Source: an uncultured Mucilaginibacter sp.
GTDB taxonomy: Bacteria; Bacteroidota; Bacteroidia; Sphingobacteriales; Sphingobacteriaceae
DNA: 36,685 nucleotides
Reading direction: 5' to 3'
Assembly: GCA_903915155.1 (NCBI GenBank)
Contig: CAIWRU010000083.1
Span: forward strand, 1-36,685
Under the pieces are notes generated by a model. That model was not told where the DNA came from. It saw only the letters and a program-made list of their open reading frames with translations, and searched no databases. Within the stretch, counting starts at the first letter, position 1; each line of letters starts with the position of its first letter. Made by a program: the position numbers and the translations under genes. Positions 21,446-28,085 of the stretch are shown in pieces.

Positions 21446-21482
21446 AACCTTTAACCTTTCACCCTTAACCTTTTACCTTTTT
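21446..21482. repeat. degenerate 7-8 nt tandem repeat (AACCTTT-type, 5 units)
   Basis: AACCTTT AACCTTT CACCCTT AACCTTTT ACCTTTTT, directly before TATCTTAG (21485-21492) upstream of glyA. Confidence 0.7.
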
Positions 21483-25700: not shown

Positions 25701-25923
25701 GCTGATGGATGTGCATATGCCTATAATGGGCGGCCTTGAAGCAACCCAAATATTGCGCGCCCATCCTGAAACTTATTTCCAGCAATTGCCTATCGTTGCA
25801 TTAACCGCTTCAATGTTAAGCAGCGAAGTTAACCAAATGACTAACGCCGGCATGAATGATTTTATCCTGAAACCATTCGACCCAAAAACATTGTACGAAA
25901 AACTGGCGAGGTACCAGAAGTAA
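22798..25923 (+). CDS. hybrid sensor histidine kinase: GAF, four PAS domains, HisKA, HATPase_c, REC
   Basis: GAF 'YICKVPMVLFSLIDDERQW'; four PAS units with three repeating '(K/R)xDxxxLWxSI.N...VDIT.(K/R)' ends; 'SVMSHEIRTPLNAVIGMSRLL'; 'GGTGLGLAISKRLIELH'; 'DVVLMDVHMPIMGGLEATQILR'. GTG start. Confidence 0.93.
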   Translation: MIDKHTLLLHDEQERVKALKSYNVMDTLPEEEYDAITRLVAYICKVPMVLFSLIDDERQWGKSAVGLGFEEGRREDSFCQYTLLGNKIFEIPDTLKNELVKDHPSVTEGLKLRFYAGAPLIDPDGHRLGSLCVMDTVPRQLSPEQLDALQVLGNEIISRMVLNKQKRELEKSLAVHKDFYALFNSSPLIHFIADKDSNIELINNAVMDILGYTPQQAIGRSIWEFVAGKNREQFVPLIEQGLATQHSFDLETETVTATGETKWIGWCAINKSGKWYASGRDITYQKKILADLEQLSLVANKMINGVVISDVNDKVVWTNNAFTEITGYDLADVENERLRDVIVIEADGLVGIEEYNHLMEQKQSYQVDVLAKRKDGTQLWLSIINSIVYDKNGEIEKYIRLLVDITERKSTEKDLEILSFAARKTSTGMLIRNKDGVIIWMNEALEEIVGYTLAEMKGQVFGDRLTGPDTDLGVFANASAAMKNNVPYEIEMKIYKKDQTALWVSISNNPLINELGQVERQVGVIVDIDKRKRAEEQLKLLSLVASSTTSGVVINDREGKVEWINTAFEKITGYNIDHVKGKHLGDTLKGELTDVAIIERARRLSRNKQSFEVDLLAYRRDGQPLWISVINSVILGSNGEVDKYIEVIIDITSKKRVEMELIAAKEEALQLNRAKDMFISVMSHEIRTPLNAVIGMSRLLIDDNPLESQKENLGILKFSAENLMTLINDVLDFTKIETGNVELEKANVNLREMVQRITSSMQYRASEKNVYLKHTIEDAIPEFVIGDSARLVQVLLNLVSNAIKFTDTGGVIIDLKVLEETNNNIRIRFAVTDTGIGIANEKINTIFESFKQAEADTTRKYGGTGLGLAISKRLIELHDSRINVDSVLGQGSTFWFTVTFNKSDNNSISNDNKMEIGLRLSVLVVDDNQINRILVNKVLQKWGTTVDFAENGKEAVDKILANKEYDVVLMDVHMPIMGGLEATQILRAHPETYFQQLPIVALTASMLSSEVNQMTNAGMNDFILKPFDPKTLYEKLARYQK

Positions 25924-25965
25924 AGTCAAAAGTCAAAAGTCAAAAGGCAAAAGGCAAAAGGCAAA
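25924..25965. repeat. 7-nt tandem repeat: 3x AGTCAAA then 3x AGGCAAA
   Basis: Read directly: AGTCAAAAGTCAAAAGTCAAAAGGCAAAAGGCAAAAGGCAAA, starting right after the kinase stop codon. Confidence 0.95.
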
Positions 25966-25994
25966 ATTTCATTATGTTAAGCTAATGAATCGGC

Positions 25995-26035: not shown

Positions 26036-26734
26036 TTACTCCGCATAAGCAATAGTTGCTATACTTAATTTCAATCCTTCAATTCTTAATAGCTGTACGG
26101 CACAGGCTTCCAGGGTCGATCCGGTTGTTACTACGTCGTCCACCAGCAAAACATGTTTATTTATTAATTTTTCAGGGTTGATAACTGCAAAAACTTCCTG
26201 CATATTCTCAAACCTCGAAAAGCGCGACTTATGGGTTTGTGTCTCAGTGGCTTTAGCGCGGATAAGGCTGCTTTCATCAACAATCGCATTGAGTTTCTGT
26301 GCCAACCCTTCGGCAAAACAGGTACTTTGGTTGTACCCGCGTTGTTTCAACCGCTTTTTATGCAGTGGCACGGGGATAATAACATCTACAGTTTTAAATA
26401 CTTCGTTCTTCGCTAGTTGCGCACCTGCAATATTCCCCAACAAAACACCTATTTGCTGCATCCCATTGTATTTAAAATGATGCATAAGGTTTTGCACCTT
26501 GCCGCCCTTGGCAAAATAATACAGCGCATAAGCGGCCTCTAAGTTTACCTTTCCCCAAAACTGCCGGGCAACAATATTATCGGGCTGCAAATGGAAATTG
26601 GTAAAAGGAAGGGTAAAACGACAATCGGTACAGATAACATACTCGCCGGCCATTAAACTCTCACCACAGGCAGGGCATAGCTGGGGGAACAGCAACGCGG
26701 CAAAATCGGCAAGATAGGTTTGGGCAAGTTTCAC
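26036..26734 (-). CDS. comF: ComF family protein (phosphoribosyltransferase)
   Basis: N-terminal zinc-ribbon 'LCPACGESLMAGEYVICTDC', 'IIPVPLHKKRLKQRGYNQSTCFAEGLA', PRPP loop 'VLLVDDVVTTGSTLEAC'. Confidence 0.92.
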   Translation of the reverse strand: MKLAQTYLADFAALLFPQLCPACGESLMAGEYVICTDCRFTLPFTNFHLQPDNIVARQFWGKVNLEAAYALYYFAKGGKVQNLMHHFKYNGMQQIGVLLGNIAGAQLAKNEVFKTVDVIIPVPLHKKRLKQRGYNQSTCFAEGLAQKLNAIVDESSLIRAKATETQTHKSRFSRFENMQEVFAVINPEKLINKHVLLVDDVVTTGSTLEACAVQLLRIEGLKLSIATIAYAE

Positions 26735-26862
26735 GGCTTTAAGTTAATGAGCGGAATTGAGAAAAGGAAATAATGAGTTACAGGATGAAAAGCGCGTTAA
26801 AAAGCGTTCAGCCAAAATGAACAGCGTAAAAAGTTAAGTAATTGATTTATAATTACGTAAGT

Positions 26863-26974
26863 GTTTGTGGGTGTATGGGTTGCGTTTGGGTTCGTATAGG
26901 TTTGTTTGGGCTTGTTTGGGCCCTGTTTATGGGGTGTTTAGGCCCTGTTTAGGTGCGTTTAGGCACAGTTTAGG
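26863..26974. repeat. helically phased array of 11 GTTTRGG units (CCYAAAC on minus strand)
   Basis: Units start at 26863, 26873, 26884, 26894, 26904, 26914, 26925, 26936, 26947, 26957, 26968; spacers 3-4 nt; mean period 10.5. Confidence 0.85.
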
Positions 26975-27026
26975 TTATGCCATTTGGCTGATATACAGCA
27001 AAATATGAACACAAAAAAGCATTAAT

Positions 27027-28085
27027 TTAAGCCCGGTTTTCTTCTTTTATGGCTAATTGGCCGCAAGCGGCGTCAATATCTTTACCGCGGCTACGGCGCA
27101 GGTTGGTGTTTATGCCCTGGCTGCGCAGGTAATCGGCAAAAATTTCTATCTTATCCTCGCCCGCGTTTATAAAGTCGGCAAATGCAATAGGATTATATTC
27201 AATAATATTTACTTTGCAGGGCAGGTGCTTGCAAAAGCGCGCCAGTTCAATAGCATCCTGTAGGGTATCATTAAACCCGTCGAACACAATGTATTCGTAG
27301 GTTACCGGGTTTTTTGTTTTGGCGTAGTAATATTTCAGTGCCTCGGCCAATGCCTTAAGCGAGTTTTGCTCGTTTATAGGCATTATGGTGTTGCGCTTTT
27401 CGTCGTTGGCGGCGTGGAGGCTTAGCGCCAGGTTAAATTTTACCTGGTCATCACCAAGTTTTTTTATCATTTTGGCTATACCGGCTGTCGATACGGTTAT
27501 TCTTTTGGCAGCCATGTTAAGCCCTTCTTCCGAAGTTATTTTTTCAACCGAATCCATTACATTCTTGTAGTTAAGCAGTGGTTCGCCCATGCCCATGTAT
27601 ACAATATTGGTTAATGGCTGGCCATAGTTTTCCATGGCTTGCTGGCTGATGAGCACCACCTGGTCGTAAATCTCGTCGGGATTAAGGTTGCGTTTACGCT
27701 CCATGTAGCCGGTAGCGCAAAATTTGCAGGTAAGGCTGCAGCCCACCTGTGATGATACACAAGCCGTCATACGGCCCGGTGTTGGAATTAAAACACCCTC
27801 AATCAGGTGTGTATCGTGTAAAATAAAAGAATTTTTTATAGTTTTATCGGCACTGAACTGTGAACTGTTGATTTTAACGTTGTTAATCACAAAATTTTCA
27901 TGCAGTTTAGTGCGTAGTTCTTTTGAAATATTGCTCATCACATCAAAAGAGAAACATGATTTCTGCCAAAGCCACTCGTAAACTTGCTTTGCTCTAAAGC
28001 CTTTTTCGCCCATTTGCGTAAAATGCTGCTGCAAAGCTGGCAAGCTAAGGCTGCGGATGTCAATTTTATCTTTTGTCGCGTTCAC
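27027..28085 (-). CDS. rlmN: 23S rRNA (adenine(2503)-C(2))-methyltransferase RlmN (radical SAM)
   Basis: 'SSQVGCSLTCKFCATGYMERKRNLNPDEIYDQV', 'NIVYMGMGEPLLNYKNV', 'TVSTAGIAKMIKKL', 'RRSRGKDIDAACGQL'. Confidence 0.98.
   Translation of the reverse strand: MNATKDKIDIRSLSLPALQQHFTQMGEKGFRAKQVYEWLWQKSCFSFDVMSNISKELRTKLHENFVINNVKINSSQFSADKTIKNSFILHDTHLIEGVLIPTPGRMTACVSSQVGCSLTCKFCATGYMERKRNLNPDEIYDQVVLISQQAMENYGQPLTNIVYMGMGEPLLNYKNVMDSVEKITSEEGLNMAAKRITVSTAGIAKMIKKLGDDQVKFNLALSLHAANDEKRNTIMPINEQNSLKALAEALKYYYAKTKNPVTYEYIVFDGFNDTLQDAIELARFCKHLPCKVNIIEYNPIAFADFINAGEDKIEIFADYLRSQGINTNLRRSRGKDIDAACGQLAIKEENRA

Follow-up and report, generated by a model that had tools for sequence, protein, structure and literature searches.

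A Dispersed MITE-Like Element with Helically Phased Heptamers in an Uncultured Mucilaginibacter Genome

The window, a stretch of 36,685 nucleotides from an uncultured Mucilaginibacter sp., carries comF (26036..26734, − strand; PF00156 and weak PF18912) and rlmN (27027..28085, − strand; PF21016 and PF04055), separated by 292 bp. Gene content and base composition likewise suggest that the host, one of the Bacteroidota, belongs to Mucilaginibacter or is closely related to it. Between them lie 11 heptamers of the GTTTRGG type (26863..26974, + strand), described in the initial annotation as an array phased at the DNA helical repeat. Direct reading reproduced the coordinates, and a free parse that allowed any step from 7 to 15 bp returned the same 11 units, with steps of 10, 11, 10, 10, 10, 11, 11, 11, 10, and 11 bp. 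The array stood as described, but its extent had to be revised: the 112-bp array is the body of a larger element of ∼210 bp (26804..27012, + strand; the sequence-model match spans 26790–27013). The alignment with other copies, together with the sequence, also defined its parts, all given here on the + strand. The element is bounded by 7-bp terminal inverted repeats, GCGTTCA (26804..26810) and TGAACAC (27006..27012). An internal inverted partner, TGAACAGC (26818..26825), pairs with the left end in a short palindrome, and the array is followed by a right arm, TTATGCCATTTGGCTGATATACAGCAAAATA (26975..27005), that includes a small palindrome, CTGATATACAG (26988–26998). The right end of the element is 14 bp from the rlmN stop codon, and the left end is 69 bp from the comF start codon; no match to a Bacteroidetes-type promoter was found at the element. 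Elsewhere in the window, the 7-bp unit AACCTTT is repeated five times in tandem (21446–21480), and a tandem 7-bp AAAGTCA/AAAGGCA repeat (25922–25966) directly follows the stop codon of a PAS-rich hybrid histidine kinase gene.

GTTTRGG arrays occur far beyond chance in the source genome: the pattern GTTTRGG-N(3,4)-GTTTRGG-N(3,4)-GTTTRGG gave 55 matches at ∼20 places, and the reversed control pattern gave 0. Using a sequence-only model and the stretches around the copies, we counted 24 full-length copies including that of the window, one truncated copy (C125), and one decayed, shortened copy (C18:20503–20649) whose remaining units still stand at 10- or 11-bp steps, a count that may miss some copies because the assembly is a draft of 222 contigs. 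Full-length copies are ∼210–235 bp long and non-coding, and they lie at unrelated loci, all between genes. Their left end, GYGTTCA, is followed within ∼20 bp by the inverted TGAACgC, then by TTAAGT, an array of 11–13 units, and TTATGCCAAAATGCTGATATACAG..AAAATATGAACRC; the 7-bp ends GYGTTCA...TGAACRC are present in most copies, and identity among copies just beyond the right end is 32%. Alignment showed that the window copy and two others are without an 11-bp unit found in most copies and that one copy carries an additional unit of 10 bp. The order of units by position (GTTTGGG, GTATGGG ... GTTTATG ... GTTTAGG) is common to the family. The left-to-right grade from GTTTGGG to GTTTAGG, previously read as suggesting growth by duplication at this site, therefore dates from the ancestor of the family and gives no sign of local growth. 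Whole-element pairwise identities of 61–84% indicate that the copies are old; at a divergence of 16–39%, they may belong to a family that has ceased to be active here. The element is MITE-like in structure, being short, non-coding, multicopy, dispersed, and bounded by terminal inverted repeats. Target-site duplication is frequent but not universal among MITEs; in the four families analyzed, matches of ≥4 bp did not exceed expectation, and the GTTTRGG family differs in this from most DDE-driven MITEs.

We compared the rlmN–comF gap across 21 relatives in which both genes lay on the fetched stretch. The distance was 5–196 bp in 19 of them (19–42 bp in 11 of these 19) and 665 and 728 bp in the remaining two. 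No array was present at this locus in the relatives compared. Among the genomes covered, those of the two closest relatives are incomplete assemblies (58% and 61%). Set against the 292 bp found here, the close spacing in the relatives indicates that the element is an insertion between otherwise closely spaced genes. The gap of three relatives (G009, G005, and G006; loci L002, L009, and L016) holds other repeat-like sequences, such as TCGACCCTCTCTTCGCC... and CCAAGAATCAAG..., which suggests that small repeats have landed in this gap repeatedly. A special link of the array to rlmN or comF, which had been considered on grounds of position, is rejected in view of the gap comparison and the 23 other full-length copies scattered elsewhere. 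The case is a caution that a gene-adjacent array need not concern that gene.

A role as RNA had also been raised. The written strand folded as an alignment had a consensus energy of −5.9 kcal/mol with double changes in 3 of 23 pairs; the absence of covariation in this fold and of any Rfam match for the element led us to reject a structured RNA. An origin from plasmids or phages was likewise rejected, with 0 plasmid matches and only four chance matches of 21–26 bases to phages.

Conservation within the family is concentrated in the heptamers. Mean pairwise identity by column was 89% in heptamers, 67% in spacers, 61% in the left arm, and 73% in the right arm (core versus spacer columns, Mann–Whitney p = 3.5e-9, treating sites as independent). 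Among 12 disjoint pairs of closest copies, heptamers diverged by 8.4%, spacers by 27.0%, and arms by 28.5%; even in the most similar copies, heptamer divergence is thus about one-third that of spacers and arms. Heptamers differ most often by A/G at position 5, a degenerate position of the consensus. Neither gene conversion nor a recent burst would spare the core relative to the spacer, and the numbers fit equally selection on each site and selection for transmission through successive copies. Steps of 10 or 11 bp make up 263 of 274, most exceptions being a weak extra match ahead of the array, and gains and losses of units in the aligned copies preserve the helical phase. The original view that this is no simple microsatellite, but conserved cores with varying spacers held in helical register through unit-sized indels, is borne out, and an array of protein-binding sites, for a protein that we infer, is its best reading.

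A search of related genomes for the GTTTRGG array (three units at 10/11-bp steps), as the initial annotation had proposed, returned no match across the genus (150 other genomes). Looser patterns revealed at least five same-genus genomes with multicopy families of their own, built on other words: TGTTCGGGnn in G010 (∼18 loci), TGTTCCGnnn in G019 (21 right ends), TGTTCmCynn in G143 (11 loci), TGTTGACnGG in G001 (3 loci), and TGTTTCAnnn in G014 (2 loci), where TGTTCGsGGG is a further array word. Single loci were present in G134, G130, and G133. The words of the five families all start with TGTT. Most of these elements begin at a unit, have ∼3–15 repeats mostly at a 10-bp step, and end in an inverted closing word (CGCGAACA, GTGGAACA, GTCAACA, or GTGAAACA), giving inverted AACA-type ends; a clear closing word is missing in 3 of 16 G010 copies. 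In the source genome, the array word GTTTRGG differs from the end word GTTCA, whereas the other families share one word for array and end. A strict four-unit TGTTC pattern occurred in 3 genomes, all of this genus, among 401 genomes of the order (control matches, 0). Some sister-family units are without an A/T tract (TGTTCGGG and TGTTCCGG), which makes intrinsic curvature, once proposed for the array, unlikely as a shared property.

In one G019 subfamily (L363, L373, L378, L379, and L382), some units are replaced by unrelated ..TTAACTATTATGG..-like sequence. The long gaps in G019 measure 21, 22, 31, or 41 bp, never 12–20 or 23–30 bp, and include two-turn gaps. These nine gaps, which are not independent because the copies are related, are the strongest sign that register, beyond mere tandem copying, is kept. 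They bear on the possibility that the array is a neutral minisatellite in a dead dispersed repeat, its phase merely inherited and its units spread by slippage. Single-unit gains and losses do occur, short tandem repeats are common in the window, and the BrickBuilt element of Porphyromonas gingivalis also holds a minisatellite (PMC4596501). We nevertheless regard neutrality as highly improbable: heptamers change about one-third as fast as the spacers of the same arrays, G019 units stay in register across unrelated sequence, and several families with different words share the period, the TGTT start, and the inverted end. The initial annotation had named orthologous loci lacking the array together with random spacing in related arrays, or spacers as conserved as cores, as marks of neutral tandem duplication. 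The array is indeed missing from orthologous loci; the spacing of related arrays, however, is non-random and spacers are less conserved than cores, which disfavors that explanation.

Several further observations concern the distribution and ends of such arrays. Of 18 mapped G010 copies, 11 fall within 1.1 Mb (C2, 1.92–3.02 Mb) of a 5.6-Mb contig, where skew in 20 samples was too weak to place origin or terminus. Two G014 loci (L357 and L359) have TGTTTCAnnn arrays that end in TGTTTCGGTGAAACA or TGTTTCGTGAAACA, resembling the ParB site parS (TGTTTCACGTGAAACA) minus 1–2 bp. A parS reading of the TGTTTCGTGAAACA ends was rejected on finding the exact 16-bp parS in none of the fetched loci, and the resemblance remains. 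A scan of other bacteria for GTTTRGG arrays gave, among the matches listed, mostly unrelated tandem repeats. Among these matches, GTTTGGG arrays with 10-bp steps occur in the Bacteroidetes metagenome-assembled genome (MAG) SZAS-11 (L158:1280–1386 and L183:1437–1463), and their common flank, AATGAAATAATTTGATAATTTGGAAATGAG, suggests that they are perhaps another dispersed family outside the genus. In Saprospiraceae DHS20C18, six or more contigs of a single MAG carry GGTTTAGG arrays with less regular spacing (L122, L163, L173, L189, L191, and L194).

We read the family, with a probability of roughly 0.6, as a non-autonomous MITE-like element whose phased heptamers seat a head-to-tail DNA-binding protein, most likely for mobilization. 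Each heptamer would be the binding site, one per helical turn, of a sequence-specific protein; asymmetric words placed head to tail once per turn suggest a directional oligomer, which would line up head to tail along the array DNA. In the other families, where the step is mostly exactly 10 bp, slight overtwisting of the bound DNA would be needed to keep a long array on a single face. The protein most likely recognizes the element for mobilization, much as the transposase of an IS607-family element coats the phased direct repeats close to the element's ends. If such a mover loaded on the array and then captured the inverted word at the opposite end, the end words, the asymmetry of the plan, and the slow heptamer change would all be accounted for. 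Parallel elements with their own words in other species suggest that word and reader protein probably change together.

The same conservation could be explained if the elements spread as mobile DNA and are now kept by the host as docking arrays for a chromosomal protein acting in nucleoid organization, segregation, insulation, or intergenic termination. Heptamers are conserved along the paths that separate even the closest pairs, all copies are intergenic, and by a simple ORF rule the right-hand neighbor gene is oriented toward the element for 17 of 24 copies here and for 29 of 48 copies in other species. We consider host maintenance unlikely, since this orientation bias is weak, the family is absent from 150 related genomes, the families are patchy with words that differ by species, and selection for element transmission accounts for the same conservation. 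If the protein does serve the host, the arrays would be a fast-evolving chromosomal site system. A more speculative variant, which we judge very unlikely, combines host service with spread: a species-private word in tens of arrays would be read by a coevolving filament protein serving chromosome organization or segregation, making a bacterial system that resembles satellites or centromeres and diversifies fast.

The search for a mover, under the preferred reading of mobilization, yielded no partner gene for the elements. No autonomous copy was matched by the sequence model or found among the 21 G019 right ends, although draft assemblies can miss one. An IS607-type mover needs a serine recombinase; the lack of any PF00239 match in G010, G019, and G001 counts against such a partner, and in the PF00239 protein of the source genome the catalytic domain comes first, a resolvase-type order. 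An IS607-type partner was rejected on these grounds. Mobilization could alternatively fall to a RAYT-like HUH (Y1) transposase acting on single-stranded end hairpins in the manner of REPINs, with the array secondary. Y1_Tnp proteins occur in 7 of 7 array genomes tested, target-site duplication is absent, and many elements end in a short palindrome, such as TGTTGACGTCAACA in G001. This route appears decidedly unlikely, as no phased array lies within ∼1.5 kb of the RAYT-like genes examined, which also led us to reject a RAYT-linked REP, no GTAG or CGTC tag is present in the aligned element ends, and it would be left unexplained why a long double-stranded array conserves its phase and its heptamers.

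Most small dispersed repeats of bacteria are hairpins or insertion sequences with deletions. The genus studied here has at least six families of similar plan, a phased array with an inverted end, and different words, which amounts to a natural experiment: the slow change of words relative to spacers is a direct measure of binding constraint, and shifts in the word would be expected to follow the specificity of the inferred protein. If that protein is the mover, it would dock on DNA in a mode not described in the open-access literature for small elements without target-site duplications.

Several known systems share parts of this plan. ParR/parC-type plasmid centromeres have 10–11-bp direct repeats bound by a filament-forming protein. 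They are single plasmid sites beside parMR, in contrast to the ∼24 chromosomal copies with inverted ends found here and the window array between rlmN and comF. BldC protomers, one for every 9 bp, assemble head to tail on direct repeats (PMC5859096); the BldC sites are likewise directional and variable in repeat number, but they are promoter operators of a regulator with 9-bp repeats of other sequence, not dispersed elements with inverted ends. REPs and REPINs moved by RAYT (PMC3116915, PMC8266576) are also short, intergenic, dispersed, and non-coding. REPs are hairpins of 20–40 bp with a GTAG or CGTC tag (PMC3733652), whereas our elements have a long phased array and no adjoining RAYT gene. 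In the IS607 family, a TnpA filament starts from dimers bound to four 9-bp direct repeats in helical phase and extends from there, and the elements move without target-site duplications (PMC6188088). Short, helically phased direct repeats near an end and the lack of target-site duplication are found here too, and the TnpA filament, at ∼10 bp per unit, is comparable to our array period. IS607 elements differ in being autonomous with tnpA and in having up to ∼5 motifs per end (in IS1535), and no IS607-type TnpA, with its N-terminal DNA-binding domain before the serine recombinase domain, was found in G010, G019, G001, or the source genome. The closest element described in the open-access literature is BrickBuilt, although a prior description elsewhere is possible. 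This MITE of P. gingivalis, also a member of the Bacteroidota, has a minisatellite body between a leader and a tail with inverted ends and 19 dispersed, non-coding, intergenic copies (PMC4596501). BrickBuilt has 23-bp units without spacers, IS5-like ends GAGACCTTTGCA, and putative short duplications of differing length; our elements have 10–11-bp units, each a 7-bp word plus a variable 3–4-bp spacer per turn, ends GYGTTCA/TGAACRC, and no duplications. By the tests made, the element is thus not a member of BrickBuilt, IS607, or REPINs, and by structure it is MITE-like.
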